Shown here piece after piece: positions 22,851-40,276 of a stretch of DNA of 64,000 nt. The stretch comes from Gemmatimonas sp. (GTDB lineage Bacteria; Gemmatimonadota; Gemmatimonadetes; Gemmatimonadales; Gemmatimonadaceae), in NCBI GenBank assembly GCA_021154325.1, contig JAJKIR010000159.1, positions 1-64,000 on the forward strand, read 5' to 3'. The first letter of the stretch is position 1. Each line of letters opens with the position of its first letter. The translations under genes were made by a program, and so were the position numbers. The notes beneath the pieces are model-generated. The model did not search any database, had not been told where the DNA came from, and worked only from the letters and a program-made list of their open reading frames with translations.

Positions 22851-22939
22851 TCGGTGGTTGGTGGTCGGTGATTGGTGACGGCGGCGTGCAACGTCGTCAC
22901 GAGTAACCAACCACCAGTCACCAATCACCAGCCACCGCC
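22851..22939 (+). repeat. 7-bp-period inverted array between cheY and cheA
   Basis: Left arm 22851-22879 is built of heptads such as GTGGTTG, GTGGTCG and GTGATTG. Right arm 22905-22939 has the complementary type (ACCACCA, GTCACCA, ATCACCA, GCCACC). Segments 22859-22878 and 22917-22936 can pair over 20 bp with two mismatches. It fills the gap from the cheY stop to 1 nt before the cheA ATG, leaving no conventional ribosome binding site for cheA. Confidence 0.75.
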
Positions 22940-22940
22940 T

Positions 22941-24974: not shown

Positions 24975-25603
24975 CCATACCCATGGACGACATCCGCTCG
25001 CTCAAGGCGATCCAGCTCGATGCGCTGAAGGAAGTAGCGAACATCGGCGCCGGGCACGCCGCGACCGCGCTCTCGCAGATGATTGGAGGGACGATCATGA
25101 TCAGCGTCCCGACAATCAATATCTCGCGTCTCGAGGAGATCCCGCCACAGGTGGCCGAGCCCGACGAGCCTGTCGCGGCGGTGCTGATGCACATGCTCGG
25201 CGATCTCACCGGACGCACCATGCTCGTCTTTCCCCGGCCATCCGCGCTGCGCCTCGCTGAGCTGATGCTCCACCGCGATGCGGGGGCGTCGCAGGAGCTC
25301 GGCGAGATGGAGCAGTCCGCGCTCAAGGAGGCGGGGAACATCCTCAGCTCGGCGTACATGAACGCGCTGAGCGAATTCATGCACATCATGCTCCTGCCAT
25401 CGCCGCCGAGCCTCGCGGTGGACATGTCGACGGCGGTGCTGACGACGGCCTATCTGCAATTCAGCTCGCAGAAGGATTACGTCTTCTGCGTCGAGAGCGA
25501 GTTCATGATGGTGCAGATGGCGGAGAAGCTGCGCGGCTTCTTTCTGCTGTTGCCCGATCCGGCGTCGCTTCAGGCGCTGCTGCGCGCCGTCCGCGTCGCA
25601 TAA
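24971..25603 (+). CDS. cheC: CheC-type CheY-P phosphatase
   Basis: 210-residue protein with the duplicated CheC/FliY/CheX phosphatase motif. The first site is LKEVANIGAGHAATAL (Glu21, Asn24), the second LKEAGNILSSAYMNAL. Both Glu-x-x-Asn pairs are kept, so two active sites are likely; at the position after GAG the first site has His where the family often has Asn. CheC removes phosphate from CheY and can be stimulated by CheD, whose gene lies 11 kb downstream in the same operon. It starts in a 4-nt overlap with cheA. Confidence 0.94.
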   Translation: MTIPMDDIRSLKAIQLDALKEVANIGAGHAATALSQMIGGTIMISVPTINISRLEEIPPQVAEPDEPVAAVLMHMLGDLTGRTMLVFPRPSALRLAELMLHRDAGASQELGEMEQSALKEAGNILSSAYMNALSEFMHIMLLPSPPSLAVDMSTAVLTTAYLQFSSQKDYVFCVESEFMMVQMAEKLRGFFLLLPDPASLQALLRAVRVA

Positions 25604-25616
25604 CGATTGTCGGCTG

Positions 25617-28412
25617 ATGAGCACCACGATGCCGCCGGCGCGACTACCGTCGCTCACGTCCCACCGCGATCGGGACGTGCTGCGGTCGTTCGCCCAGCGC
25701 ATCGATCCCGCCGACGCGGGTGCTCACAACAATCTCGGCGTCCTCTATTACAACAAGGGTCTGCACGAGGAGGCCGTTGCGGCGTTCATGCGCGCGCTCG
25801 AGCTCGACCAGAAGATGCAGGTCGCGCAGCGCAATCTCGAGATCGCGTACTTCAACACCGGCTACTACGACAAGCGGATTCCCGAGCTGCGCGAGCGTCT
25901 GCGCCAGCATCCCGAGGATCGTGACGCACGCTGGGAGCTCGGCCGCACTTACGCCTTGGTAGGCCAGCAGCCGCAGGCCATCGAGGAGTTCACATCGCTG
26001 CTTCAGTACCATCCGAACGACGTGGGGGCGCTGCTTCAGCTCGCGCTTGCCGAGAAGCAGGCTGGCGACATCGGCCGCGCGCAGGAGTGGCTCCAGCGCG
26101 CGCTCGCGCTCGACAAGGACAGCTCGATTCTGCACTTCTACCTCGGCGAGGTGCTGTACAACCGCGGTCTCAACGACGAGGCGCTGAGCGCGCTGAAGCG
26201 CGCGATGGAGCTGAACCCGGAGAATCACGACGCCCTCTACCTCATGGGCTTCGTGCTCGGCGACATGGGGCGCCACGAGCAGGCGCGCGACATCACGAAG
26301 CGGGCGATCAAGCTCAATCCGACGCTGTCGCGCGCGCAGCCGAATCTCTCGCTCGAGAATGGCAAGCCGCAGCGGTACGAGGAGGCCGTTGCCGCGCGGG
26401 AGGAGCGCCGCGGGCGCGAGATGCAGGTGACGGGCGAGGGCCGTCTCGCGCGCTACAATCTCGGTCTCGCGTTCCGGCAGAAAGGATACTTCGTCGAGGC
26501 GCTGCGCGAGTATAGCCTCGCGCTGGAACAAGGCGAGGATCGCGACCTCGTGCTGCAGGCCATGGCGGAGGTGCACATCCTCCGCAAAGATCCCAAGGCG
26601 GCCATCGAGCTCTATGAGCAGCTGCTCAACTCGCAGCCGAACAGCCCCAAGCTGTGGAACGAGCACGGTGTTACGCTCCACCAGGATGGCCGCTTCGACG
26701 AGGCGGAGGCGAGCTACCGGAAGGCGATCGCCGCCGATTTGCACTACGCCCTTGCCCACAATAACCTCGGGATCGCCCTTTACCACCGAGGCGATGTCGA
26801 GGGCGCGCTCAAGTCGTTAGGCAGCGCCGTCGACTCGCAGCCGTCGTTCGTGAAGGCGCGGCTCAACCTCGCGCTGCTCCTCTACAAGGGGAAGCGGCTG
26901 CAGAAGGCGCTCGAGGCATATCGTCAGGCGCTGACCACCGAGACCGAACATCCCGTGGCATGGAACGGAATCGGCCTCGTCCTCGCCGACCTCAAGAAGC
27001 ATGACGACGCGAAGAACGCGTTCGCTCGCGCGATTCAGGCTCGTCCCCGCTACGCCGAAGCGCATTACAATCTGAGCTTCACGCTCTCGAGCCTTGGCGA
27101 CTTCGAGGGTGCGCTGCGCGAGACGAAGCTCGCGCTCGAGATCGATCCGTATTACGTCGGGCAGAAGTTCGAGCTTGCGATCGACCTGCAGCACGAGGAT
27201 CCGGACCTCTCGATCCAGCCGGATCTCGGGTCGGAGAAGCGCGCCGACGAGCCGATCGAGGAATTCAGCTTTGACGCAAAGCTGCTCGACACGCTGTTCA
27301 CGGAGCTGGCGCCGGCGCCACCTCCGGCGGGGACGGCGGTAGCAAGCGGCAATGAGCGGGCCGCCTATAAAATGGCTGCCGACTACCTCACGAAGGGGAT
27401 GCACGACCGCGCCGCGGCGGAGATACGCCGGGCGATGGCGCGTGGCGCCGATCGCGCCGAGGGTCAGGCATTGCTCGGCAGCATCTTCGCGAAGCAGGGG
27501 CTGCACGGCGAGGCATTGGAGCGGTATCGAGAGGCGAGGCGCGAAGCCACAGGTACGACCGCGCCGCGGCTGGCGCTTATCGGCGAGGCGTGGTCACTCG
27601 TCAGACTCGGCCGGGCCGGCGAAGCGCGGCCCGTTGCCGAGGAGCTTCTCGCACGCGAAGCGGAGGACATCGAGATCCTCATGCTCGTGGCGACAGCGCG
27701 CGGCGACGCGGGCGATCCGGCGGGCGCGCTCGCAGCGCTCGAAACTGCCCGGCGTGTCGCGCCGATGCGCGCCGACGTGCAGCAGAAGGTCGGCGACATC
27801 GCGCGCTCCCTCGGGGATATCGAGGGAGCGATTGCCGCGTATCGACACGCGCTCACGCTCGATCCTGATTTCGCCGTGGTGCGCTTTCAGTTGGCGCGGC
27901 TGCTTGCTTCCAAGGGCGCGGTGAAGGAAGCGGAGCAGGAGCTCGTCGCCGCGCTCGACGCCGTGCCGACGTATGCGGAGGCGACGCTCGAGCTCGCGGC
28001 GCTGCGCCGGCAGGTCGGACGGGCGGGAGATGGCCTGCCGCTGCTGATCGACCTTCTCCAGCGCGACCCCTATCACTTCGACGCCCTCATCGCGTTAGGC
28101 GAGACGCTCCTCTCGCTCGGCCGGCAGCGCGACGCGGTGACCGCGTTCGCGCGCGTTCTGCGATTCGATCCGTCGCACGTGGGAGCGCTCTACCACGAGG
28201 GCGCGCTGCTCGCGGAGCAGAAGCGGTATCGCGAGGCCATCTCGCGCTGGGAGAAGGTGATCGCGCAGGCACCGGCGAGCGACTACGCCAAGCGCGCCAA
28301 GCGTGAGATGCGCACTGCCGCCGACCTCGCCCGCATCTTCGGCGACAAGCCGTCGGCAGATGCCAAACCGCGCCGCACGAGCGGTCCGACCACTTCTCAC
28401 TCGCGGAGCTGA
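25617..28412 (+). CDS. large tetratricopeptide-repeat protein
   Basis: 931-residue cytoplasmic protein made almost wholly of TPR units, at least a dozen, in two blocks: about residues 35-530 and 580-910. An acidic linker (about 530-580) separates them. Typical units read HNNLGVLYYNKGLHEEAVAA and LGEVLYNRGLNDEALSALKR. No signal peptide or catalytic motif is present. It lies 13 bp after cheC and 3 bp before the DUF4388 gene. Its likely role is a scaffold that assembles the Che proteins, roadblock proteins and MglA; the partners are inferred from position only. Confidence 0.88.
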   Translation: MSTTMPPARLPSLTSHRDRDVLRSFAQRIDPADAGAHNNLGVLYYNKGLHEEAVAAFMRALELDQKMQVAQRNLEIAYFNTGYYDKRIPELRERLRQHPEDRDARWELGRTYALVGQQPQAIEEFTSLLQYHPNDVGALLQLALAEKQAGDIGRAQEWLQRALALDKDSSILHFYLGEVLYNRGLNDEALSALKRAMELNPENHDALYLMGFVLGDMGRHEQARDITKRAIKLNPTLSRAQPNLSLENGKPQRYEEAVAAREERRGREMQVTGEGRLARYNLGLAFRQKGYFVEALREYSLALEQGEDRDLVLQAMAEVHILRKDPKAAIELYEQLLNSQPNSPKLWNEHGVTLHQDGRFDEAEASYRKAIAADLHYALAHNNLGIALYHRGDVEGALKSLGSAVDSQPSFVKARLNLALLLYKGKRLQKALEAYRQALTTETEHPVAWNGIGLVLADLKKHDDAKNAFARAIQARPRYAEAHYNLSFTLSSLGDFEGALRETKLALEIDPYYVGQKFELAIDLQHEDPDLSIQPDLGSEKRADEPIEEFSFDAKLLDTLFTELAPAPPPAGTAVASGNERAAYKMAADYLTKGMHDRAAAEIRRAMARGADRAEGQALLGSIFAKQGLHGEALERYREARREATGTTAPRLALIGEAWSLVRLGRAGEARPVAEELLAREAEDIEILMLVATARGDAGDPAGALAALETARRVAPMRADVQQKVGDIARSLGDIEGAIAAYRHALTLDPDFAVVRFQLARLLASKGAVKEAEQELVAALDAVPTYAEATLELAALRRQVGRAGDGLPLLIDLLQRDPYHFDALIALGETLLSLGRQRDAVTAFARVLRFDPSHVGALYHEGALLAEQKRYREAISRWEKVIAQAPASDYAKRAKREMRTAADLARIFGDKPSADAKPRRTSGPTTSHSRS

Positions 28413-28415
28413 CGC

Positions 28416-29579
28416 ATGGCGATCGAAGGCCCGCTTCGCGAACTGGGAATCCACGACGTCTTCCAGCTGCTCGACCTCAGCCGGAAGACGGGTGTGCTGC
28501 GCGTGGCGTCGGAGCTGCGCGACGACGAGGGCGTCGTGTACTTCGATTCGGGCCGCGTCGTGCACGCGCACGTGCGCTCGAAGGCAGTGCCGCTCGAGCT
28601 CACGCTGCTGCAATCGGGAAAGATCAGCAAGGACGATCTCGAGTCTGCACGCGCCAGGCGCACCAACGGCCGCGCCGAGGCAGACCTCGTCGACCTGCTG
28701 GTAGAAGGGGGCGCGGTGACGTCGAAAGAGATCGAGCGCCAGCTGCGCATGCAAATCGAGAGCGTCGTCTTCGAGCTGATGTCGTGGCGCGAGGGATTCT
28801 TCTCCTTCGAGGAGCGCGCGGCCAACGAGCTGGTGCACACCCGGGAGGCGCGGATCCGCGTGTCCACGGAATCCCTGCTCATGGAGGGCGCGCGCCGGAT
28901 CGACGAATGGTCGCGGATCGCGGACAAGGTGCCGAGTCTCGCTGTCGTACCGGTGCTCGCGCCCGTGCGCGACGATGGCGAAGCGTCGCAGCTCGACCTC
29001 CTGCCGCCCGAGTGGGAGGTGCTCTCGATGATCGACGGCTCGCGCGACCTGCGCGCAATCGCGGGGTCGTTAGGCAGACCGGAGTTCGACATCGCGCGGG
29101 TGGTGTACGGTCTCGTCACCACGGGCGTCGTCGAAGTGAGGACGCCGGACCACGCGACCCCGCTGGCCGAGGATCACGGGACGGAGTCGGCGCTGGCGCA
29201 GGCGCGCGCGGCGCTGGCCCGGGGGGCTGTCGACGAGGCGCTCACGGCGGCGCGTGGCGTCCTGGCCAAAGAGCCGGGGAACGCTCGGGCGCACCTGCTC
29301 GCCGCAAGCATCCTCGGAACGTTGAACCGACGCGATGAAGTCGTGGACGAGCTCCGCCGCGCGGTGCGCGCGGATCCGCTCACGCCGGAGATACATCTCG
29401 AGCTCGGCTTTGCCGCCGTGTACGTCGGCGACTTCGTGACGGCGCGGTCGAGCTGGGAGCACTTCCTCCGCCTCGCTCCGACGGGGCCCGAAGTGGGCCG
29501 GGTGCGCGCGGCGATCGAAGCCTTGACGCGGCTGATGCACGTTCTGGAAGCGCACGCCGAGGCGGTGGCCAATGGCTGA
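28416..29579 (+). CDS. DUF4388 (PATAN-like) protein with C-terminal TPR-like helices
   Basis: 387-residue protein. Residues 1-115 (MAIEGPLRELGIHDVFQLLD, then VVYFDSGRVVHAHV) match the DUF4388/PATAN domain, a protein-interaction module often found with response regulators, MglA and type IV pilus regulators. A middle segment (SRIADKVPSLA, EWEVLSMIDGSRDLRAIAGSLG) resembles the winged-helix-like region that accompanies this family. The C-terminal 110 residues form TPR-like helices. A second protein with the same N-terminal plan lies at 33.8 kb. Overlap with the next gene is 8 bp. Confidence 0.85.
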   Translation: MAIEGPLRELGIHDVFQLLDLSRKTGVLRVASELRDDEGVVYFDSGRVVHAHVRSKAVPLELTLLQSGKISKDDLESARARRTNGRAEADLVDLLVEGGAVTSKEIERQLRMQIESVVFELMSWREGFFSFEERAANELVHTREARIRVSTESLLMEGARRIDEWSRIADKVPSLAVVPVLAPVRDDGEASQLDLLPPEWEVLSMIDGSRDLRAIAGSLGRPEFDIARVVYGLVTTGVVEVRTPDHATPLAEDHGTESALAQARAALARGAVDEALTAARGVLAKEPGNARAHLLAASILGTLNRRDEVVDELRRAVRADPLTPEIHLELGFAAVYVGDFVTARSSWEHFLRLAPTGPEVGRVRAAIEALTRLMHVLEAHAEAVANG

Positions 29580-30438
29580 TGACGTCCGCCGCTGGAGCGA
29601 CGAGCTTGCGCGAGATCCCGCCAGTCTCGTGTTCTTGCCGTTAGGCGAGACCCTGCGGCGGCAGGGCCAGCTCGATCTCGCGCTCAAGATTGCGATGCGC
29701 GGCCTCGAGCGGCACTCGCATAACACCGACGCGCACGATCTGCTCGCACGGATCGCGGTGGATCGGGGCGAGCTGCAGCGCGCGTTCGACGAGTGGGACA
29801 TGGTGCTCCGCCTAACGCCTGGCCATCTCGGCGCGCTGAAGGGGATGGCGTTCGTGCGATTCCAGCAGGGGAACGCGGCGGAGGCCGAGGAATATCTGCG
29901 GCAAGCGGCAGAGCAGGGTGGCGACGCGGAAGTGGTAGCCGCGCTCACGAATCTGCGATCGCGCGGGACCAGGGACGCGGGACGAGGGACGCGGGACGAC
30001 AGGAGCGACAATCATGCGCGCCCCGCGGCCCACGTCCCTCGTCCCGCGGATGTCCCCCACCCCGCGGCCAATGATCCCCGCGCGCTCTTCGCGGACATCC
30101 TCGGTCAGGAGGAGCAGACCGCCCTCTTGCTCGACGATCAGGGGCTGGTGCTCGCGGGGATCTACATGGGCGAGGATGGTCAGGACGTCGCGGCCGAAGT
30201 TGGCGCGGAGCTGAGCGGCGTCACTGATGCGGCGCGCCGCGCCACGAAGCATCTCGACATCGGCGAGTGGCGCGCGATCGTGCTCGAGACGGAGGTCGCG
30301 GTCGTGACGATGGCGCCATCCGCGGGGGACGGCCTGCTCGTCGTCGCCGCGTCCAAGGCGACGCCGCTGGGACTCGTGCGGCGAGTACTCGACCGGTGCC
30401 TCGATCGCGCGCGCCAGTGGCTGGAGGGCTCGCAATGA
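29572..30438 (+). CDS. TPR plus roadblock/LC7 protein with a repeat-derived insert
   Basis: 288-residue protein. Residues 1-130 are three to four TPR units. Residues about 168-280 (LFADILGQEEQTALLLDDQG onward) match the roadblock/LC7 fold of MglB-like proteins, which act on Ras-like GTPases. Between them, residues 131-165 are low-complexity (Gly-Thr-Arg-Asp repeats, then His-Val-Pro-Arg) and are encoded exactly by a 7-bp-period inverted array (29963-30066). The array keeps the frame, so it serves as a linker here. The downstream roadblock gene overlaps by 4 nt. Confidence 0.85.
   Translation: MADDVRRWSDELARDPASLVFLPLGETLRRQGQLDLALKIAMRGLERHSHNTDAHDLLARIAVDRGELQRAFDEWDMVLRLTPGHLGALKGMAFVRFQQGNAAEAEEYLRQAAEQGGDAEVVAALTNLRSRGTRDAGRGTRDDRSDNHARPAAHVPRPADVPHPAANDPRALFADILGQEEQTALLLDDQGLVLAGIYMGEDGQDVAAEVGAELSGVTDAARRATKHLDIGEWRAIVLETEVAVVTMAPSAGDGLLVVAASKATPLGLVRRVLDRCLDRARQWLEGSQ
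29963..30066 (+). repeat. 7-bp-period inverted array inside a coding sequence
   Basis: Left arm 29963-29999 is five heptads of GGGACGC/GGGACGA/GGGACCA type. Right arm 30021-30066 is the complementary CCCGCGT/CCCTCGT type. Positions 29976-29991 and 30033-30048 form a perfect 16-bp inverted repeat. It lies wholly within the reading frame of the TPR-roadblock gene. The left arm has five GGG tracts with 4-nt spacers on the coding strand. Confidence 0.8.
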
Positions 30439-30785
30439 GCGCTTCGCCATTTGCCACAATCCTCTCGACGTTGACGCGCCAGCGCGGCGTGCGCGCGAGT
30501 CTCGTCGTGGACGAGAGCGACGGGATCGTGATCGAATCGAACCTGCAAATCGGGCAGGACGGCGACCGAGTGGCTGCCCTCGCGGCGTCCCTTTATCGCA
30601 AGGCGCGGCTCTCCGCGGGTGCCGCCCGGCTTGGTACAGCGACGTTCATGCAGCTCGAGGCCGAGCGCGGCCGAATCTGTGCCGCGGGCCACAATGACCT
30701 CGTCCTCGTAGTGGTCGCCGATCCCGCGGCGAACATCGGCATGATCCGCGTCGAAATGATCAAAGCTGCGGGGGCTCTCCCATGA
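30435..30785 (+). CDS. roadblock/LC7 domain protein
   Basis: 116-residue single-domain protein. The pattern FATILSTLTRQRGVRASLVV, then SDGIVIESNLQIGQDGDRVA and LVLVVVADPAANIGMIRVEM, is the helix-strand-helix order of roadblock/LC7 proteins, the family of MglB. Such proteins bind Ras-like GTPases (here MglA, 0.5 kb downstream) as dimers and stimulate GTP hydrolysis or position them. Start ATG overlaps the previous stop (ATGA) and its own stop overlaps the next gene in the same way. Confidence 0.85.
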   Translation: MSASPFATILSTLTRQRGVRASLVVDESDGIVIESNLQIGQDGDRVAALAASLYRKARLSAGAARLGTATFMQLEAERGRICAAGHNDLVLVVVADPAANIGMIRVEMIKAAGALP

Positions 30786-31255
30786 CCATTACCGCCGTCG
30801 AGACATGGGTGGAGGCCCCGCTGCGCAAGTTTGTGGAGGAAGCACGAACGGTGCTGGGGCTGCTGCTGCATCCGAGCGGACAGGTCGTGGCGCAATTCGG
30901 ATTCGCGCGTGCGGTGGACGTCATGTCCGCGTGCGCGCTCGCGGCCGCGATCCACGCATCGTCAGGCGAGCTGGGAAAGCAGCTCGAGGGCAAGGCGTTT
31001 CGCGGACTCCACCACCCGGGCCGCGATCGTCAGCTGTATCTCGCCGAAGCGGCGACGTCGCGCGGCGCGTTCATCTTCCTCACCGTCTTCGATCAGGAGA
31101 GCTCGTTCGGACTCGTTAGGATGTACTTCGACACCTTCTGCAAGGATCTCGCGGCGGCCGCTCCGCCGATGAGCCATCAGCCCGAGGTGGTGCTCGAGGA
31201 TCGGTTCGAGCATGAGCTGAACAGGAACCTTGCGGCACTGTTTGGAAGAGGATAG
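30782..31255 (+). CDS. roadblock/LC7-like protein, third in a row
   Basis: 157-residue protein with a roadblock-like core (residues about 15-130): LGLLLHPSGQVVAQFGFARA, then LYLAEAATSRGAFIFLTVFD and FGLVRMYFDTFC. An extra C-terminal helix (LEDRFEHELNRNLAALFGR) is amphipathic and might contact MglA. It is more diverged than its neighbour, so the family call rests on fold pattern and context. It ends 12 bp before mglA and starts in a 4-nt overlap. Confidence 0.75.
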   Translation: MTITAVETWVEAPLRKFVEEARTVLGLLLHPSGQVVAQFGFARAVDVMSACALAAAIHASSGELGKQLEGKAFRGLHHPGRDRQLYLAEAATSRGAFIFLTVFDQESSFGLVRMYFDTFCKDLAAAAPPMSHQPEVVLEDRFEHELNRNLAALFGRG

Positions 31256-31267
31256 GCACCTCTCCCC

Positions 31268-31864
31268 ATGTCTCTCGTCAACTACGCCACCCGCGAGATC
31301 ACCTGCAAGATCGTCTACTACGGACCTGGTCGGTCCGGAAAGACGACGAACTTGCATTACATCTACGGGCAGGTGCCGGAGGACCGAAAGGGGAAGATGG
31401 TGTCGCTCGCGACGCAGACAGACCGCACGCTCTTCTTCGATTTTCTGCCGCTCGATCTCGGCACGATCTCCGGCTTCACGACGAAGTTCCAGCTCTACAC
31501 GGTGCCGGGACAGGTCTATTACCAGACGACGCGCAAGCTCGTGCTCCAGGGCGCGGACGGCGTCGTCTTCGTCGCCGATTCGCAGGCGCGGCAACTCCAG
31601 GAAAACATCGAGAGCCTCCAGGACCTTCACTCGAATCTCGCCGAGCAGGGGATCGAGGCGCGCTCGGTGCCGCTCGTGCTGCAATACAACAAACAGGATC
31701 TGCCGCGGGACCTCGTTCTCACCCCGGCCGAGCTGAATGACGCGCTGAACTTTCGCGGCGTTCCCGAGTTCGGTGCCGACGCGCTGCACGGCCCGGGCGT
31801 GTTCGAGACGCTGCGCAGCATCTCCGAGCTCGTGCTCAAGCGATTGAGCGCGCCGGTGCGATAG
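31268..31864 (+). CDS. mglA: MglA-like Ras-type small GTPase
   Basis: 198-residue cytoplasmic GTPase. Walker A GPGRSGKT spans residues 19-26, TLFFDFLPLDLG is the characteristic MglA switch region, TVPGQVYY holds the Walker B/switch II segment with Gln82, and NKQD at 141-144 gives guanine specificity. In Myxococcus, MglA-GTP marks the leading pole and drives gliding and type IV pili, with MglB as its GTPase activator. Here three roadblock proteins precede it directly, so the regulator role may be split among them. Confidence 0.95.
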   Translation: MSLVNYATREITCKIVYYGPGRSGKTTNLHYIYGQVPEDRKGKMVSLATQTDRTLFFDFLPLDLGTISGFTTKFQLYTVPGQVYYQTTRKLVLQGADGVVFVADSQARQLQENIESLQDLHSNLAEQGIEARSVPLVLQYNKQDLPRDLVLTPAELNDALNFRGVPEFGADALHGPGVFETLRSISELVLKRLSAPVR

Positions 31865-31872
31865 GCCATCCG

Positions 31873-33822
31873 ATGCAAGTCGATCCCCGCCACCGCTTCG
31901 ACAACTTCATCGTCGGCTCCGCCAACCGGCTCGCCGTCGCCGCGGCGCGCGCCGTCGCGGAGTCGCCGGGTGCGGTCTACAATCCGCTGTTCATCTACAG
32001 CGGCTCCGGCCTCGGCAAGACACACCTGATGGGCGCGATCGGCAATCACGCGAGCGGGCGGGGTGGGGGCGCGAACCTCGACATCGAGTACGTCTCGCTG
32101 GACGATTTCGTCGAGCAGCTGCACGCGGCGATCGCGAGCGGCGAGGGTGAACGGTTCAAGCAACGTTACCAGCGCGTCGACGTGCTCCTCATCGACGACA
32201 TGCAATTTCTCACCGGCCGGCGCGAGACGCAGACCGAACTTCTGCGTTTGCTCAACGCGATGCAGGGAAGCGGACGTCAGATTGTCATGTCGAGCGACCG
32301 GCCGCCGGCGGAGATCGCCGATGTCGACGAACGGCTCATCACGCGTTTGTCCGGCGGTCTCATCGTCGACATCGGGCCACCGGACTTCGAGACGCGGATC
32401 GCGATCATGCGAGCGAAATGCGAGGAGCGCGGCGTGCGCTTCTGGCCGGGTGTCGTCGAGGAGCTGGGACGGCTCGAGTTCCGGAACGTCCGCGAGCTCC
32501 AGGGCGCGCTCAACCGGCTGATTGCCTTCCAGACGTTAGGCGGCGAGCAGATCAAGCCCGAGGACGTCCTGACGGTTCTCGGTGACCTGCCCGAAGCGAA
32601 GCGCGCCGCCGAACACGGTACGCGAGGCGTTCCCGCGCCTAACGAATTCCAGAGCTTCGTCTCCGACATCGCCACCGCCGTCGCACAACACGTCGAATCG
32701 TGGAAAGCGCGCGTCGCCGAGGCGATCGCCTACTGGACCGGCGAGGGCTATCGCACGGGCCAGCTCGAGCGGCTCCTCGACGAGACGGCGCCGCCCCCGA
32801 ACTGGGAGTCGCTCCTCCGCGGCTTCGGCGCCACCGTCGAGCGGCTCAAGGCGCTCGAGCAGCAAGCCACTGAGGTCGATGCCGCGTTAGGCGGCAACGA
32901 GGTCTTCCGCGATCCGGAGCGGCTCCGCGAGGCCGAGATCCTCCTCGACCGTGCGCTCGCCGGTGCGACGCCACCTCCCGGCCCGTCGGCCGCGTTCACC
33001 AGGCAGGGCTTCGAGGTGTCCTCGAGCAATCAGCTCGCCGTGCGCGCCGCCGATGACATCGTCGCCGAGCCGGGGAAGCGATACAGCCCGCTCTTCATCC
33101 ACGGGCCGAGCGGCGTCGGCAAGACGCACCTGCTGAACGCGATCGGGAACGAGCTCGTCGACGGCAGCGGCGGCGCGACGGCGGTCGCGTGCATCAGCGC
33201 GCAGGTCTTCATGGACGAGTTGATCGAAGCCCTCCAGGACGGCACCGTCGAGCGCTGGCGCGCGCGCTACCGTTCGGCGGACGCGCTGCTCATCGACGAC
33301 GTGCAATTCGTCGCCGGCAAGGAGCGCACGCAGGACGAGCTCTTTCACGTCTTCAACGCGCTGCACGCCGAAGGGAAGCAGCTCGTCTTCTGCAGCGACC
33401 GCCCGCCGCGCGATCTGGACGGCCTCGAGGATCGGCTACGCTCGCGCTTCGAGGGCGGGCTCGTCGTCGAGATGCAATCGCCCGATCGTGCGCTGCGCGA
33501 GAAGCTTTACGCACGCTATCTCGCCGCGACGGAACACGAGCCCGGGCCCGATCTTCTCGCCTATCTCGCCGAGCGTCCTATGGCGAGCGTGCGCGAGATC
33601 ATAGGAACGGTCAACCGACTGGTCGCGGCCGCGGACGTCGCGGGCGCGCCGCTCACGCTCGCAGTCGCCCGCGCCGAGCTCGATCCTGAGTCATCCGCGT
33701 CCGCCAGACCGGCGACGCCCGCGGCGGTGCGCGCGGCGGCCGACACTTTCTTCCTCGACGACGAGAAGGTGGTGTGGGAATGGACGGATGCGTCGACGCG
33801 GATGCTGGAGGAGCTGAAATGA
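31873..33822 (+). CDS. twin DnaA-type AAA+ ATPase lacking the DNA-binding domain
   Basis: 649-residue protein containing two DnaA domain III-like ATPases. First copy: Walker A GSGLGKTH at 44-51, Walker B LLIDDMQFL at 105-113, sensor 1 MSSDRPPAEI, and sensor 2 NVRELQGALNRL near 205-216. Second copy: GPSGVGKT at 411-418, LLIDDVQFV at 472-480, CSDRPPRDL, arginine-finger segment DRLRSRFEGGL at 520-530, and VREIIGTVNRL near 573-583. The first copy has TRL where the second has SRF after the finger Arg. A helical spacer of about 130 residues joins them. There is no DnaA domain I and no domain IV with the DnaA-box-binding helix-turn-helix. It sits 8 bp after mglA. I infer an ATP-driven switch or assembler acting on proteins, not a replication initiator. 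Confidence 0.88.
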   Translation: MQVDPRHRFDNFIVGSANRLAVAAARAVAESPGAVYNPLFIYSGSGLGKTHLMGAIGNHASGRGGGANLDIEYVSLDDFVEQLHAAIASGEGERFKQRYQRVDVLLIDDMQFLTGRRETQTELLRLLNAMQGSGRQIVMSSDRPPAEIADVDERLITRLSGGLIVDIGPPDFETRIAIMRAKCEERGVRFWPGVVEELGRLEFRNVRELQGALNRLIAFQTLGGEQIKPEDVLTVLGDLPEAKRAAEHGTRGVPAPNEFQSFVSDIATAVAQHVESWKARVAEAIAYWTGEGYRTGQLERLLDETAPPPNWESLLRGFGATVERLKALEQQATEVDAALGGNEVFRDPERLREAEILLDRALAGATPPPGPSAAFTRQGFEVSSSNQLAVRAADDIVAEPGKRYSPLFIHGPSGVGKTHLLNAIGNELVDGSGGATAVACISAQVFMDELIEALQDGTVERWRARYRSADALLIDDVQFVAGKERTQDELFHVFNALHAEGKQLVFCSDRPPRDLDGLEDRLRSRFEGGLVVEMQSPDRALREKLYARYLAATEHEPGPDLLAYLAERPMASVREIIGTVNRLVAAADVAGAPLTLAVARAELDPESSASARPATPAAVRAAADTFFLDDEKVVWEWTDASTRMLEELK

Positions 33823-33835
33823 GGGGGAGCCACAG

Positions 33836-35461
33836 ATGGCGATAAAAGGCTCGCTGAAGGAGGCATCCCTCCCCGACGTTCTCCAGCTTCTTGCGATGGG
33901 GAAGAAGACCGGATGCCTCGCGGTGACTCACCGGAGCAACTTCGGGTACATCTTCTTCGAGAAGGGGCGCATTTGTTATGCGTCGATCGTGAATCGTCGC
34001 GATCGGCTCGGCGACATGCTGGTGAAGAACAGCGTCATCTCGCAGGAACAGCTGGAGAGCGCCGTCGCCGCGCAATCGAAGACGCGCGACAAGCGCATCG
34101 GCGAGCTGCTCGTGGAGCAGAGCGCGCTCACGCGCGAGGAGCTTCATCAGTACGTCCGGCGCCAGATCGAGGAGGCGGTGTATTTCCTCTTCACCTGGAT
34201 GCAGGGGACGTTCAACTTCGAGGCCGACGTCCATCCCGAGGAGCAGGACCTCCTCGTCTCGATCAATCCGGAGTCGCTCCTCCTCGAGGGCGCGCGCCGG
34301 ATGGACGAGTGGAATCTCGTGGAGAAGAAGATCCCGAGCTTCGATCTCGTCTTCGAGGTGGACCAGAGCCGTCTCAGCGCGACCGACGCGTCGCTGACCG
34401 AGGAGCAGCGAACCGTGCTCGACCTCATTGACGGCCAGCGCGACGTGCAGAGCATCATCGACGAGTCTGGTCTCGTCGAGTTCGAGGTCGGCAAGGCAAT
34501 TTATGGTTTGCTCACGGCCGGCTTCGTGCAGCGCGTCGGCCGCACCAAGGCAAACCTCGATCCGCAAGTCTCCGAGACGCGGATTGAGGAGCATCGGAAT
34601 CTCGGTATCGCGTTCTACAAGACTGGCATGCTCGATGAGGCGCTGCGCGAGTTGCGCCGCGTCGTCGAACTGCGGCCCGCGGACGGCTCCGCGCGCTTCT
34701 TCATCGGCGTCGTGCTCGCGCGCCAGGGTAAGTGGGCCGAGTCAATGACCGTGCTGAAGGAGGCGTCGGCGCAGCCCGGCGTGCGTTACGGCGTTCTGCA
34801 CAACCTCGCGTACGTGCTGGAGCGCCAGGGACGTTACGCGGAAGCGCAGAGCGCGCTCGAGGAGGCGGCGCGCCGCGGCGGCGCGACCGACCCACGCGTC
34901 CAGACCTCGATTGGCATCGTCGCGCTGCTCGCGGGCGACGTCGTCAGCGCCGATGCGGCGTTAGGCGCGGCGCGTCCGCTCTTCGCCAATCGCCCGCCGA
35001 CCGCCGCGTGGTTCCACTATGCGGCGCTCACCGCGGCGCTGCTTGGCGATCATCAGCGCGCGGCAGCGCTCCTCACCGATGGGATCGCCGCGCATCCGCA
35101 CGCGGCGGCGCTCCACAACAATCTCGCCGTGGTGCACGAGCGACAGGGTCGCTTCGACGAGGCGCTCGCGATCGTGGAGCACGGGATGCAGGAAGATCCC
35201 GGACTCGCGCAGCTGCAGAAGAATTTCGGCGACCTGCTCTACCGACTCGGGCGCTACGACGATGCCTTCGAGGCGTATCAGCGCGCGGTGAAGGCGAACC
35301 CTGACATCGGCAGCGATGTCTATCTCAAGCTCGGCAACATCCGCTTCCGGCGTCGCGATCGCGACGAGGCGGTGCGGTGCTGGGAGCGTGCCCTCGAGCT
35401 GGATCCGGAGAACGCGATCGTCCGGACGAATCTCGAGTCCGTGCGCCAAGTGCTCGGATGA
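33836..35461 (+). CDS. DUF4388 protein with GspE/PilB N-terminal-like motif and TPR repeats
   Basis: 541-residue protein. Residues 1-60 (MAIKGSLKEASLPDVLQLLA, GYIFFEKGRICYASI) form a DUF4388/PATAN domain. Residues 60-130 (RLGDMLVKNSVISQEQLESA, then RIGELLVEQSALTREELHQY) repeat the pattern of the N-terminal domain of GspE/PilB-type secretion and pilus ATPases. Six or more TPR units fill residues 245-535. The plan resembles the protein at 28.4 kb. The presence of pilus-ATPase-like motifs next to MglA hints at type IV pilus control. Its last 4 nt overlap cheR. Confidence 0.85.
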   Translation: MAIKGSLKEASLPDVLQLLAMGKKTGCLAVTHRSNFGYIFFEKGRICYASIVNRRDRLGDMLVKNSVISQEQLESAVAAQSKTRDKRIGELLVEQSALTREELHQYVRRQIEEAVYFLFTWMQGTFNFEADVHPEEQDLLVSINPESLLLEGARRMDEWNLVEKKIPSFDLVFEVDQSRLSATDASLTEEQRTVLDLIDGQRDVQSIIDESGLVEFEVGKAIYGLLTAGFVQRVGRTKANLDPQVSETRIEEHRNLGIAFYKTGMLDEALRELRRVVELRPADGSARFFIGVVLARQGKWAESMTVLKEASAQPGVRYGVLHNLAYVLERQGRYAEAQSALEEAARRGGATDPRVQTSIGIVALLAGDVVSADAALGAARPLFANRPPTAAWFHYAALTAALLGDHQRAAALLTDGIAAHPHAAALHNNLAVVHERQGRFDEALAIVEHGMQEDPGLAQLQKNFGDLLYRLGRYDDAFEAYQRAVKANPDIGSDVYLKLGNIRFRRRDRDEAVRCWERALELDPENAIVRTNLESVRQVLG

Positions 35462-36315
35462 TCAGTCGCCGCGAGGAAGCCGGGGGGCAGACGCCGGCCT
35501 CGTCGGAGCTCGATCGTGAGTTCGAGGAGCTGACGCGGAAGATCTCGCGCGACCGCGGCTTCGCCTGCGCCAGCTACAAGGAGAAGTGCCTGCGGCGCCG
35601 CATCGCCGTGCGGATGCGCGCGCGCGGTGTCCACAGCTACGCGGACTACGCGCGCGTCCTTGACAGCGACTCCGGCGAATACGATCGGCTGCTCGACGCG
35701 CTGACGATCAACGTCACGAAGCTCTTCCGCAACTGGCCGGTCTACGAGGCGATTGCCGAACGAGTGATCCCGCCGCTGTGGGATGCCGAGACTCGGCCCA
35801 TTCATGTGTGGTCCGCCGGCTGCTCGAGCGGCGAGGAGCCGTACTCGCTCGCGATCCTCTTCCATCGTTATGCAGCGCTGCGGCGCCAGTTGCGCGACGT
35901 CGGCCGCGTCCACGTGGATGGAACGGACATCGATCGGGCGAGTCTCGCTTCGGCGGAACGCGGCCAGTTCAACGAGGGCGCGTTCGACGAGACGCCTGCC
36001 GATCTGCGGTCGCAGTACTTCTCGGCGACGGCGCCGTTCACCGTCGCGCCGGCGGTACGCGCGAGTGTGCGCTTCCGACGTATGGATCTGCTCGATCAGT
36101 GGCCGACGCAGCCTGGCGGATACCAATTGATCGCGTGTCGGAACGTGCTGATCTACTTCGATCGGGACACCCAGGAGCGTCTTCTCGCCCGATTCCACGA
36201 CGTGCTCGCTCCCACCGGGTTCCTCGTGCTCGGCAAGGTCGAGACGCTGCTTGGGTCCGTGCGATCCCAGTTCGCGGCCGTGGATGCCCGCGAGCGCATC
36301 TTCCGCCGCGTATGA
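35458..36315 (+). CDS. cheR: CheR chemoreceptor methyltransferase
   Basis: 285-residue S-adenosylmethionine-dependent methyltransferase that methylates receptor glutamates. The N-terminal helical domain contains KCLRRRIAVRMRARG. The SAM-binding motif VWSAGCSSGEEPYSLAI is intact, as is IACRNVLIYFDRDTQ in the CheR-specific half. I chose ATG 35458, overlapping the previous stop (ATGA), over the longer open frame. With cheB and cheD next to it, the cluster keeps a full adaptation set even though no receptor gene is present in the window. Confidence 0.95.
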   Translation: MISRREEAGGQTPASSELDREFEELTRKISRDRGFACASYKEKCLRRRIAVRMRARGVHSYADYARVLDSDSGEYDRLLDALTINVTKLFRNWPVYEAIAERVIPPLWDAETRPIHVWSAGCSSGEEPYSLAILFHRYAALRRQLRDVGRVHVDGTDIDRASLASAERGQFNEGAFDETPADLRSQYFSATAPFTVAPAVRASVRFRRMDLLDQWPTQPGGYQLIACRNVLIYFDRDTQERLLARFHDVLAPTGFLVLGKVETLLGSVRSQFAAVDARERIFRRV

Positions 36316-36812
36316 TCGAGGCGGACCAGACGACGGAGATCCGCGTGAAGGTGGCGGAGTGCGCCGTCGGCCGCAATGAGCAAACACTCATCACGATCGG
36401 GCTCGGCTCGTGCGTGGCGATCGTGCTCTACGACAGCCGGGCGCGGATTGGGGGACTCGCCCACACACTCCTGCCAGACGAGTCGATGGCGCGCGACCGC
36501 TCCAACCCGGCGAAGTTCGCGGCGTCGGCGGTCACCGTCCTCCTCGCCGAGATGGCCCGTCTCGGAGCCGACGCCCGCCGTGTAAGGGCGAAGCTCGTCG
36601 GGGGCGCGAGCATGTTCGCGAATCTCCTGCCCAGCGGCGGGATCAACATCGGAGAGCGCAACGTTGCCGCCGCGCGACAGGCACTGGAGCGGAGCGGCAT
36701 CCACATCGTCGCCGAGGACGTCGGCAGCGATCATGGCCGGAGCGTGTACTTCCATCTCGACGATGGGCGTGTCGAGGTCCGTTCTCTGAAGAAAGGCAAC
36801 CGTGTCATCTGA
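36312..36812 (+). CDS. cheD: CheD receptor glutamine deamidase
   Basis: 166-residue enzyme that deamidates specific receptor glutamines and can bind CheC. The catalytic Cys34 lies in GLGSCVAIVLY, His51 in GGLAHTLLP, and the conserved LVGGASMF and NIGERN segments follow. It overlaps cheR by 4 nt and the cheB GTG start by 11 nt. Coexistence with CheC in the same operon suggests the CheC-CheD-CheY-P feedback known from Bacillus. Confidence 0.95.
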   Translation: MIEADQTTEIRVKVAECAVGRNEQTLITIGLGSCVAIVLYDSRARIGGLAHTLLPDESMARDRSNPAKFAASAVTVLLAEMARLGADARRVRAKLVGGASMFANLLPSGGINIGERNVAAARQALERSGIHIVAEDVGSDHGRSVYFHLDDGRVEVRSLKKGNRVI

Positions 36813-37962
36813 CGCCGCGCCCGCGAGCGCGCTGCGCGAGACGCCAAAGCGCGGCGTTCTCGTCGTGGACGACAGCGCGTTCATGCGCCGCCTGATCTCG
36901 CAGATTCTCGAGGCGTCGGGCGAGTTTCAGGTCGTCGGCACCGCCCGCAATGGCGTTGACGCGCTGCAGAAGGTGCACGCACTCGACCCCGATCTCGTGA
37001 CGATGGACGTCGACATGCCCGAGCTCGACGGTCTCCAGGCGTTAGGCTACATCATGAGCGAGTCGCCGCGGCCCGTCGTCATGCTGAGCGCGGCGACGAC
37101 CCGCTCGGGGCACGATGCGACACTGCGGGCGCTCGAGCTCGGGGCGGTGGACTTCGTGCGCAAACCGTCAGGGCCGATCAGCCTCGATCTCGAGAGGGTG
37201 AGTGAGCGACTGCTCGGCGCTCTGCGCGCGGCGGCACAGGCCAACGTGCGCGGCGTACGGATGCTCGCGATCAATCGCCTCCCGGAGCGAGACACGCCCG
37301 CGCGCCCTGCCGTGGCGATTCCTGCGCCGTCCGTCTCGCCGGCGACGAGGCCGCGTGTCGCGGCGCCGGGAACGGCAGCCACGCGCGTGGTCGTCATCGC
37401 GTCATCGACCGGGGGGCCGCGCGCACTGGCCGAGGTCGTACCCAATCTGCCGCGTGGATTGGGCGCGGCGGTGCTCGTCGTGCAGCACATGCCGGCGGGA
37501 TTCACGAAGAGTCTGGCCCAGCGACTCCACGCGCTGAGCAAGTTGCCGGTCAGCGAAGCGGAAGCGGGCGAGCCGCTCCTCACCGATCGCGTGTATCTGG
37601 CGCCGGGCGGACGCCACATGTCCGTGACCGGTGCCGTTGGCGCGGCGACAATCGTGCTCGACGATTCTGCGCCGATCTGGGGAGTGAGGCCGTCGGCGGA
37701 CCCGCTGTTCCGCTCCGTCGCCGACCGCTTCGGCGGCGATGCCGTGGCGGTCGTGCTCACCGGCATGGGGCGCGATGGTGCGGAGGGCACTCGCGCCATT
37801 CGCGCGGCGGGTGGACGCGCGGTGCTGCAGGATCGCGCGACCTCGACGATCTTCGGCATGCCTAACGCGGCGCTGCAGATCGCGGGCGCGGACCGGGTCG
37901 CGGCGCTCGGTGAGATCGGTCCAGCAATCGTGCAGATGCTGGCCGTGAACGGTGAACGGTGA
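36802..37962 (+). CDS. cheB: CheB protein-glutamate methylesterase
   Basis: 386-residue response regulator and esterase. The receiver domain has Asp23-Asp24 and phosphoacceptor Asp69 (VTMDVDMPELDG); a Pro/Ala-rich linker leads to the catalytic domain with the Ser in VIASSTGGP, the His in VQHMPAGFT and the Asp in TGMGRDGAEG. It demethylates receptors. The GTG start lies within the cheD tail. The last four residues (NGER) and the stop codon are encoded by the first heptads of a 7-bp-period array, so the natural C-terminus may have been replaced. Confidence 0.95.
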   Translation: MSSDAAPASALRETPKRGVLVVDDSAFMRRLISQILEASGEFQVVGTARNGVDALQKVHALDPDLVTMDVDMPELDGLQALGYIMSESPRPVVMLSAATTRSGHDATLRALELGAVDFVRKPSGPISLDLERVSERLLGALRAAAQANVRGVRMLAINRLPERDTPARPAVAIPAPSVSPATRPRVAAPGTAATRVVVIASSTGGPRALAEVVPNLPRGLGAAVLVVQHMPAGFTKSLAQRLHALSKLPVSEAEAGEPLLTDRVYLAPGGRHMSVTGAVGAATIVLDDSAPIWGVRPSADPLFRSVADRFGGDAVAVVLTGMGRDGAEGTRAIRAAGGRAVLQDRATSTIFGMPNAALQIAGADRVAALGEIGPAIVQMLAVNGER

Positions 37963-38008
37963 ACGGTGGACCGTGCACGGTGAACCGTGCACGGTCCACG
38001 GTCCACGG
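37944..38008 (+). repeat. 7-bp-period array with a 15-bp hairpin at the cheB end
   Basis: Heptads of GTGAACG/GTGCACG/GTCCACG type run from inside the cheB 3' end. Positions 37966-37980 and 37985-37999 form a perfect 15-bp stem with a 4-nt TGAA loop. Only a short T run follows (38011-38013), so it is a weak terminator candidate at best. The remaining 78 bp before the second cheW show no further signal. Confidence 0.8.
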
Positions 38009-38086
38009 CATTTGTGACCCCCGACAGCCCTGACTGTCATTCTCAGGAAGTGGCTCGTCCCGTTCCATCTGCTCTCACCTGCTGCC

Positions 38087-38707
38087 ATGGCCCAGGACAC
38101 CGGCGACGACGAAGGATCAGCGCTGTCGATCGAGGACTTTGCGGCCTCGATCGCGGCCTCGCTCGCGGCCAACGCACAGCCGGCGGCCGCGGAGCAGCCT
38201 GTGTCCGAACCCGGAGCAGCGCTGAGCTTTCGCGAGCGGGTGCGGCAGCGCGTCGGCATCGCGCAGCTCCTCATCTTTCGAGTCGCGCGGGAGCTGTTCG
38301 CGGTGGAGCTGGTGACGGCGGAAGAAGCGCTCGACATACCGGTGTTGCATCGGCTCCCCGAGATGCCGCCCTCGATGCTCGGAGTCTTCACGCTGCGCGG
38401 GGCGCTCGTCTCGGTCTTCGAGCCGCAGGTGGCGCTCGGGATTCGATGCGAGAAGGCCGCGACGGTAGTGGTCTTCTGTGGCGGCGATCGTCGTGTTGCC
38501 ATCGCTGCCGACGACGTGGACGATGTCGCGACCGTGGATCTCGCGACCGTGCGCGACGCACCCGGTGCGCGCGCGAAGGATGGGGCGCTGCTGGGCATTG
38601 TCCATCGCGGCGCCGATCTGATCGCGGTGCTCGACGCGCAGGAAATCGTGGCGACGCATAGTGCCGCAACGGCGGTGCTCGACGAGCCCGCGGAGGAGAG
38701 AGTATGA
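38087..38707 (+). CDS. CheW-domain protein, second copy
   Basis: 206-residue protein. An Ala/acid-rich N-terminal 60 residues precede a CheW domain: LLIFRVARELFAVELVTAEE, then MLGVFTLRGALVSVFEPQ and LLGIVHRGADLIAVLDAQEI. The usual INLRG wording is changed to FTLRG. It is longer and more diverged than the first CheW and could serve a different array or an output complex. Its stop overlaps the third cheW by 4 nt. Confidence 0.85.
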   Translation: MAQDTGDDEGSALSIEDFAASIAASLAANAQPAAAEQPVSEPGAALSFRERVRQRVGIAQLLIFRVARELFAVELVTAEEALDIPVLHRLPEMPPSMLGVFTLRGALVSVFEPQVALGIRCEKAATVVVFCGGDRRVAIAADDVDDVATVDLATVRDAPGARAKDGALLGIVHRGADLIAVLDAQEIVATHSAATAVLDEPAEERV

Positions 38708-39210
38708 ACGCCGAAGCAACGAAGCTCGTCACCTTTCGTCTCGCCGACGATCTTTTCGCGGCGGACATCTTCGCCGTCGAGCGCGTGCTGCGATATCAGG
38801 CGCCCCGCGTGCTGCCGGACGTGCCGCACTGGATCGAAGGCGTCATCGAATACCAGCAGCGCGTGATTCCGGTCGTGAATCTGCGGCGGCGGTTCGAGCT
38901 GGCGGAGCGACCGCCGGCGCCGGACACGCGGATTGTCGTCCTCACTGCGCGCGGCGAATGGATCGGGATCGTCGTCGACTCGGTGGTGGAGGTCTCGGCG
39001 GTGGAGGCCGGAATGATAGCTGCCGCGCCGTCCTTCTTCCGCGGGCTTGCCGGGGACTACCTCAAGGGCATCGTCCGGCGCGGCGAAGGGGAGCGGCTCG
39101 TGATCGTGCTCGACGTGGAACAGTTGTTGTCGGCGACGGAGCGGATCGCGCTGCAGCTGGGGAGCGAGCGCGGAACGCCGATCGCCGGTGGCGCCGTCGT
39201 CGATGCCTAA
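38704..39210 (+). CDS. CheW-domain protein, third copy
   Basis: 168-residue protein with a CheW fold throughout: LVTFRLADDLFAADIFAVER, WIEGVIEYQQRVIPVVNLRR and GERLVIVLDVEQLL. The segment VIEYQQRVIPVVNLR stands in for the canonical INLRG loop. Tight overlaps on both sides (4 nt with the previous cheW, 8 nt with the following TPR gene) show co-expression. Confidence 0.88.
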   Translation: MNAEATKLVTFRLADDLFAADIFAVERVLRYQAPRVLPDVPHWIEGVIEYQQRVIPVVNLRRRFELAERPPAPDTRIVVLTARGEWIGIVVDSVVEVSAVEAGMIAAAPSFFRGLAGDYLKGIVRRGEGERLVIVLDVEQLLSATERIALQLGSERGTPIAGGAVVDA

Positions 39211-40096
39211 CGACGCGAACACGACGTGGCGGGAGCGTTACGGCGCGCTCCAGCGGCGTCTCGCCGGTGAGGGGGCGCCGCGCGAGCTGGACGCGCTGAA
39301 GACGGAGATCGGCGTGCTCTTCAAGCAGCTCGAGCAGGAGATCGGCGACCTAACGGCGCTGCGCGACGATGTCAAACAGCTCGTCGACCAGTGGAAGACG
39401 CTTCGCGCCCGCAATGGCGGCGCCAACGGCGGCAGCTCCGGCGCGCACCCGGTGCCGCCGTCGAATGCGCCCCAGTTCAGCGGTGAGCGCCCGGTGGTGC
39501 GCGCCGACCACATCGGTGCCTCGACCTTCATCGAGAAAGGGTGGAGCAAGTTGTCGCTCGGCGACCACGAAGGTGCGGAGGTCGCGCTCCGGAAGGCGCT
39601 GGAGCTGTCGCCTAACGATCCGCAGACCGAGGCGCTGCTCGGGTGGGCGTTGATGCTGCAGGAGAAGTACGACGACGCACTGCTCATGTTCCAGAAGGTG
39701 TTGATGCGCCAGCCGCAAAACGCGCTCGCCCGCATCAACGTCGGCTACATTTGCCTGAAGAAGCGCATCTTCGGCGAAGCCATCGAGCATCTGTCGCGAG
39801 CGATCCGGCTCGACAACGACAAGAAGGCGTCGCTGTACGCGCATTTCTATCTCGGCCTGGTGTATCTCGAGCGCGACATGTTCGAGGACGCGCAGACCTT
39901 CTTCCGGAAGACGATCGCGCTCGGCCCCGGCCTGATCGAAGCGTACTTCGAGCTGGGGCGAGCGCTCTGGTTCAACGGGCAGCGCGACGAGGCGATCGAG
40001 ACGTGGAAGAACGGCTTCGCGGCGAACAAGTTCAATCCATGGGGAAAGCGCTGCGCCGATGTGCTCACGACAGTCGAGCGTGGGGGAGAGCCCTAA
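39203..40096 (+). CDS. coiled-coil and TPR protein
   Basis: 297-residue cytoplasmic protein. Residues 10-75 form a coiled coil (ELDALKTEIGVLFKQLEQEI), followed by a low-complexity linker and four TPR units (about 110-275, for example GWSKLSLGDHEGAEVALRKA). I use ATG 39203, which overlaps the cheW stop and lies immediately before a CCTAACG copy; an in-frame ATG five codons upstream is also open. The TAA stop is followed at once by a GGGACGC repeat array. Confidence 0.85.
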   Translation: MPNDANTTWRERYGALQRRLAGEGAPRELDALKTEIGVLFKQLEQEIGDLTALRDDVKQLVDQWKTLRARNGGANGGSSGAHPVPPSNAPQFSGERPVVRADHIGASTFIEKGWSKLSLGDHEGAEVALRKALELSPNDPQTEALLGWALMLQEKYDDALLMFQKVLMRQPQNALARINVGYICLKKRIFGEAIEHLSRAIRLDNDKKASLYAHFYLGLVYLERDMFEDAQTFFRKTIALGPGLIEAYFELGRALWFNGQRDEAIETWKNGFAANKFNPWGKRCADVLTTVERGGEP

Positions 40097-40276
40097 CGCG
40101 GGACGTGGGGCGCGGGACGCGGGTTGCGGGGTGCGGTATTCGGGACGCGGGACGCGGGACGCGGGGCATGTCCTGGATCGCGCGAATCCGCGCGATCTTA
40201 TGCGGACTCGTTCTGCTTCCGGCGTCTGCGTCTATGCGCCCTTCCCGCGTCCCGCCTCCCGCGTCCCGCGCCCCGC
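40097..40276 (+). repeat. 7-bp-period inverted array spanning the start of the peptidase gene
   Basis: Left arm 40097-40167 is built of GGGACGC-type heptads and ends 1 nt before the ATG. Right arm 40242-40276 is five perfect-period CCCGCGT/CCCGCCT-type heptads inside the coding sequence. Positions 40107-40123 and 40258-40274 pair perfectly over 17 bp. The start codon and signal peptide codons lie in the intervening loop. Positions 40142-40166 follow (G3N4)3G4, a canonical quadruplex pattern on the coding strand. Confidence 0.82.

Follow-up and report, generated by a model that had tools for sequence, protein, structure and literature searches.

The locus raises the question of what an ATPase of the DnaA type is doing in an operon that also encodes the Ras-like GTPase MglA. 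We analyzed a window of 64,000 nucleotides, the whole stretch of Gemmatimonas DNA from which the lines above are taken, in which an open reading frame (31873-33822, forward strand) encodes a protein of 649 residues with two DnaA domain-III AAA+ modules. We call this protein and its family Twin. A reading of the bare sequence had proposed that such a two-domain ATPase was re-used for cell polarity. The part of that proposal which stands is that a DnaA-type AAA+ module has left replication for a locus containing mglA, while its emphasis on there being two domains is not supported.

The genes around Twin all lie on the forward strand. Upstream are a CheA-like kinase and a CheC-like gene (22872-25603, named by inspection and gene order, and likewise part of the conserved gene order), a 931-residue repeat protein that is TPR-like by inspection (TPR931, 25617-28412), a PATAN (DUF4388) protein termed PATAN1 (28416-29579), a TPR and roadblock fusion protein that is conserved in the operon (29572-30438), a second roadblock/LC7 protein (30426-30785, PF03259) and an MglB-like roadblock protein (30782-31255). 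The latter has no Pfam match and is assigned by its predicted fold, with an AF2 pLDDT of 92.6 and the MglB structures 6izw and 6hjm as the best Foldseek matches; it may be a roadblock GAP of the MglB type, with the GAP activity being putative. The adjacency to mglA that had been read from the sequence was confirmed, as the gene immediately upstream of Twin (31268-31864) matches Myxococcus xanthus MglA in the PDB with an E-value of 2.9e-74 and is, judged on its sequence, a genuine MglA. Directly after Twin comes PATAN2 (33836-35461), a protein with a PATAN (DUF4388) domain and TPRs, followed by CheR, CheD-like, CheB and two CheW genes (35377-39210; CheR, CheB and the second CheW by Pfam, the others by inspection) and by a TPR protein that ends the conserved order (TPR302, 39188-40096). 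This order, TPR931-PATAN1-TPR/roadblock-roadblock-MglB-like-MglA-Twin-PATAN2-CheR-CheD-CheB-CheW-CheW-TPR302, recurs entirely or in large parts across families f1, f2, f3, f5, f8 and f10.

The predicted architecture of Twin agrees with what the sequence-only reading had described, namely two domain-III modules in one chain with neither DnaA domain I nor domain IV. Specifically, PF00308 (Bac_DnaA) matches Twin in two stretches with an E-value of 1.2e-109, and the families for domains I and IV are absent among the best 25 of 26 Pfam matches. Domain I, which in DnaA serves DnaB loading, is missing in that the reading frame begins where domain III begins. The AF2 model (mean pLDDT 89, pTM 0.52, which leaves the relative placement of the domains uncertain) comprises a first AAA domain at residues 1 to about 238 (31873-32586), a helical linker at residues 260-365 (32635-32967), a second AAA domain with a complete lid at residues 375-608 (32995-33696) and then a poorly ordered tail of low confidence. 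The best Foldseek match to this model is domain III of Bacillus subtilis DnaA (8bv3), with a TM score of 0.94 on the target. Both copies retain Walker A (K49 and K417), Walker B (D108/D109 and D474/D475), sensor 1 and sensor 2, as had been claimed, and for copy 1 the assignment rests additionally on ATP-site residues that are conserved family-wide. The DnaA-type arginine finger seen earlier in copy 2 is indeed present there (R525), although it is not confined to that copy since copy 1 carries one as well (R158). The linker, which has the motif EFxxFLSDxxxxVxxxVE...W.GEGYRT..LE...DPxR, matches no Pfam family above cut-off. A motif in the tail, DxxFFxDxEKVVWxWxxxxxRxxEEL (33733-33819), yielded nothing convincing outside the Twin-family genes when other proteins of the loci were searched.

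We compared the neighborhoods of 80 Twin loci, mostly of about 14 kb. PATAN2 lies directly downstream of Twin in all 80, with a median gap of 2 bp. This holds also for the 14 loci of family f7 (L087-L100), where Twin and PATAN2 occur together away from the mglA, roadblock and che genes and adjoin an isoleucyl-tRNA-synthetase-like gene, with a DivIVA-like gene in most of these loci (names by inspection). Since the f7 pair stands separate from mglA, it is the adjacency of Twin and PATAN2 that is the constant. The closest partner of Twin is thus the PATAN-TPR gene just downstream and not mglA, with the reservation that this adjacency could reflect co-expression only. A gene for a peptidase-like membrane protein (named by inspection) follows the Twin-PATAN2 pair in 14/14 of the f7 loci, and a similar peptidase-like gene lies after the TPR gene in the window at about 40096-41193.

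A protein search of 295 genomes of the class Gemmatimonadetes found full-length Twin relatives in families f1, f2, f3, f5 and f7, and forms of about 400 residues in f8 and f10. When a phylum sample of 326 genomes was searched with a linker profile, 193 matched, almost all of them a single time; among the genomes listed, the only one with two matches has them on two contigs, and every listed match falls within the class Gemmatimonadetes. Given full-length relatives in several families and this spread of the linker, the reading frame is far more than chance, and Twin is an old family of the class. A profile scan of contigs from beyond the phylum returned matches that resemble canonical DnaA. The two-AAA proteins share the order AAA1, linker, AAA2 and tail, and in a tree of the AAA domains copy 1 forms one clade and copy 2 another (SH-aLRT 99 each), the two joining with a support of 93 apart from the DnaA of Gemmatimonadota. 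The one-AAA forms group with copy 1. This topology fits a single old internal duplication with later losses of copy 2, the deep joins being tentative because the tree search was short and the branches are long.

The two copies differ in what they have kept. In copy 1 the Walker A lysine and the Walker B aspartate are each present in 81 of 81 proteins across the family, and the arginine finger in 71 of 81. Copy 2 of families f1-f3 has the Walker A lysine in 54/55 proteins and the finger in 51/55, so that the ATP site of copy 2 is complete in most two-AAA proteins, and copy 2 is therefore not a dead ATPase in general. Copy 2 of f7, on the other hand, has lost the Walker A lysine in all 14 sampled proteins and retains Walker B in 1/14. 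In B. subtilis DnaA, I190 serves single-stranded DNA binding and R264 is the arginine finger (PMC10721633). An I190-type residue is present in copy 2 of 46 of the 55 f1-f3 proteins and, together with the finger, in 14/14 f7 proteins; the features of copy 2 that correspond to contacts thus outlive its ATP site. The R202 position is also kept in copy 2. Many of the initiator-specific contacts are gone from copy 1 (the I190, R206 and K222 positions), whose I190 equivalent is histidine in 37/56 f1-f3 proteins and mostly other residues elsewhere.

The reduction of Twin goes further than the decay of copy 2. Copy 2 is absent, with the tail retained, from the f8 and f10 forms, from genus g8 (L250, L253) and from G148 (L245). 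Two further candidates for one-AAA forms, G230 and G117, were rejected (contig end; frame break) and left out of the counts. In G016 a 73-residue reading frame (L237:8927-9148), MAKDSKKGESEEESGEFADFMADISQEIAQRVESLDTKPQAPPPEKKKTPIAPEAGLIVEWPNIADRMIEEMR, takes the place of Twin between mglA and PATAN2; it consists of linker helix 1 and the tail with the AAA part missing. Searches with PATAN2 in seemingly Twin-less genomes uncovered AAA-less frames of the same kind in genera g3, g5 and g14. These mini-forms are about 55-75 residues long, retain of Twin only linker helix 1 and the WP tail at the C-terminus, and mostly overlap the start of PATAN2 (TGATG or TAATG). Close pairs have nonsynonymous to synonymous ratios of 0-0.36, that is, they are under purifying selection. 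Wherever PATAN2 was present and Twin had been missed or only partly found in the first search, a Twin-family gene precedes PATAN2 (11/11 assessable loci): one is a two-AAA form at a contig end, two have one diverged AAA domain and eight are AAA-less, with G016 being a further AAA-less case beyond these 11. The first linker helix is accordingly one of two elements that survive in the minimal form, and the other, the tail motif, is common to two-AAA, one-AAA and AAA-less relatives.

The mini-forms make up one clade with a support of 100 in a PATAN2 tree built without the insertion columns. These columns cover a helical segment inserted into the PATAN domain of PATAN2 (33995-34171, forward strand, in the window), of which about 53 residues are missing in the AAA-less clade; the insertion is absent in 9/9 PATAN2 proteins of that clade and present in 88/88 others. 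That AAA domains and insertion were lost in the same clade suggests that the AAA cap and the insertion work together, but as a single event on the tree it falls short of proof and could be a coincidence. The insertion partially resembles two 24-residue motifs of the MshEN type. It recalls the tandem RLGxxLVxxG...Q motifs of the MshEN domain that binds c-di-GMP (PMC5013675), but unlike that domain it has a spacer of 6 instead of 5, and its motifs are degenerate in many members, such that a relaxed motif occurs twice in 25 of the 88. The Pfam MshEN family does not match it.

Every form seen retains the beginning of the linker and the tail, encoded next to PATAN2, and the AAA domains can be dispensed with, which is explained most economically if Twin is an adaptor that carries an ATP switch derived from DnaA. 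The shrinkage to a peptide of 70 residues likewise suggests that Twin is an adaptor whose ATP switch can be removed and not a replication protein. We therefore favor, with a probability of roughly 0.6, a reading in which Twin is an adaptor of PATAN2 that carries a DnaA-derived AAA cap and belongs to a module of MglA, roadblock, PATAN and chemosensory proteins. Twin would dock on PATAN2 by the first linker helix (EFxxFLSD..V..VE) and by the C-terminal tail (EKVVWxWP....R.IEE), with the AAA domains forming a regulatory cap. Copy 1 would bind ATP, and copy 2 would be a duplicate that has diverged and in which the arginine finger has lasted best; this finger may serve the ATP site of copy 1 in the same or in a neighboring chain. 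ATP binding might then close or assemble the cap and hydrolysis release it, and the cap would probably target the helical insertion of PATAN2 or work jointly with it. A simple one-way pairing of finger and site does not explain everything, since the finger of copy 1 also survives in 14/14 f7 proteins, although copy 2 there lacks an ATP site that it could serve. More tentative is the fuller version, that a DnaA-derived ATPase has moved wholly out of replication to become an ATP-gated adaptor in the control of cell polarity and pili, perhaps also gated by c-di-GMP through the PATAN insertion, that can be reduced to a 70-residue docking peptide. The natural series of two AAA domains, one and none indicates which elements matter, and its members could serve directly as constructs in tests of how PATAN-TPR proteins are regulated.

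The foremost alternative is the one first proposed for the pair of domains, that they serve self-assembly or the capping of a filament. Twin would then be a scaffold in which ATP-bound domains stack head to tail as in DnaA, the stack marking a pole or carrying MglA and PATAN2, and the degenerate copy 2 of f7 acting as a chain terminator. Each module does model as DnaA domain III, both copies carry the finger, and copy 1 has a full ATP site. We nevertheless consider a scaffold improbable, as copy 2 has decayed in f7 and been lost several times, and copy 1 lacks much of the initiator-specific contacts. Self-assembly and capping are both weakened further by the clade that has dispensed with both AAA domains and kept the linker helix and tail.

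The position of mglA, which is the gene immediately upstream of Twin in 65 of the 80 loci, would fit a different role, in which MglA is the target: the AAA domains of Twin would stand in for RomR/RomX as its exchange or activation factor, and PATAN2 would be only the next effector. In f7, moreover, MglA is still encoded elsewhere in the genome in 18 of 19 sampled Twin-positive genomes. We doubt this role as well, given that the PATAN2 pairing persists when mglA moves away and that the g5 mini-locus has no adjoining mglA. As observations on mglA itself, the operon MglA of genus g29 (L079, L111, L112) is strongly diverged (about 150 bits versus about 270 or more) and changed in its P-loop region, yet Twin and PATAN2 are kept, and the otherwise similar locus L050 (G211) showed no mglA in the interval from the roadblock gene to Twin.

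Less probable still is a role in linking replication state to polarity, by binding of single-stranded DNA, oriC or DnaA or by an Hda-like action on DnaA. The sequence-only reading had raised such a link, and evidence for it was not found. The retention in copy 2 of the I190-type residue and of R202 would speak for DNA contacts, and Twin does score against Hda models. However, its 171.6 bits against TIGR03420 (Hda), summed over both copies, stay below the cut-off of 194.8, and its N-terminus, MQVDPRHRFDNF, starts directly at domain III and by inspection holds no Hda clamp-binding motif. It likewise falls under every cut-off of the DnaC, DnaI and IstB NCBIfam equivalogs. Domain IV (PF08299) is missing from Twin and occurs once in the source genome, in a separate canonical DnaA of 462 residues on contig C206, and exactly one PF08299 match is present in 29/30 sampled genomes and none in 1/30. 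This excludes Twin as the only DnaA of its genome, and the AF2 model contains no hidden C-terminal helix-turn-helix, two possibilities that had been named at the outset. Finally, Twin sits in a motility-type operon, and its AAA-less relatives retain that place.

Both copies of Twin share with DnaA domain III (8bv3, 2z4r) the AAA+ fold, Walker A and B, sensor 1, the arginine finger and sensor 2. Unlike DnaA, Twin has no domain I or IV, has two modules per chain, a linker domain and tail of its own, a copy 1 that mostly lacks the residue for single-stranded DNA, and a gene away from replication loci. Hda, DnaC, DnaI and IstB resemble it in belonging to the AAA clade of DnaA and in missing the DnaA-box-binding domain, but Twin differs from them in having two modules, in lacking their partner-binding N-termini and in its motility-type operon. 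That Twin began as an IstB-like helper ATPase from a mobile element, or as a phage gene, and then settled in the operon is a negligible prospect: IstB_IS21 is a secondary Pfam match, but the IstB score is far under the DnaA score and under the NCBI cut-off, the operon position is conserved and the conserved order includes no transposase gene. Automatic annotation may nonetheless misname Twin as the replication initiator, as it reaches 521 bits against the NCBI DnaA equivalog TIGR00362 (cut-off 343.9), which it passes because the scores of its two domains are summed. To our knowledge, all DnaA-clade ATPases of known function act on DNA, on helicases or on DnaA itself. If our preferred adaptor reading is true, the Twin family would carry the DnaA motor into an MglA/PATAN operon and thus into protein-only signaling, which would be the first such re-use that we know of.

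Control of type IV pili and of cell polarity is the probable task of the operon as a whole. MglA together with SgmX recruits PilB (PMC11580455), the PATAN protein PixE is a proposed binder of PilB1 (PMC7690835), and PATAN genes have been found near mglA (PMC4316618, with no mention of DnaA in its main text). Like the MglA-MglB-SgmX pilus polarity system of M. xanthus (PMC11580455, PMC7519303), the operon combines MglA, an MglB-fold roadblock protein, TPR proteins and chemosensory genes; unlike that system, for which the portions of these two papers that we consulted describe no DnaA-type ATPase, it has PATAN-TPR proteins and Twin as fixed parts. Cyanobacterial PATAN proteins that act on pilus motors, such as PixE (PMC7690835), resemble PATAN2 in tying PATAN to chemosensory or light signaling and to pili, whereas PATAN2 has TPRs instead of a receiver domain and an adjoining Twin or mini-Twin gene. 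Operons of this type are already known; what is new, as far as we checked, is the DnaA-type component and the series of reductions. Searches of open papers on MglA with DnaA and on DnaA-like relatives turned up no description of Twin.

A link to pili is also visible in gene content. The source genome (G000) has both PilT and PilM matches and was scored on these as having a type IVa pilus machine. Within f7, a family in which the presence of Twin varies, PilT is above cut-off in 35/35 Twin-positive genomes versus 36/57 others (Fisher p 1.4e-5, with kinship ignored), and at E <= 1e-144, a threshold picked after seeing the data, in 33/35 versus 4/57; this comparison omits two genomes of ambiguous Twin status and uses E-values transcribed by hand. 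PilM at a loose threshold correlates weakly with Twin (p 0.014). Because many genomes with pili lack Twin, its part would be that of an accessory, and any effect of Twin on pili or motility is what we infer from this co-occurrence and from the operon. As a minor observation, f7 genera g60 and g66 have no Twin and mostly lower-scoring PilT and PilM matches, which possibly belong to another type of pilus.
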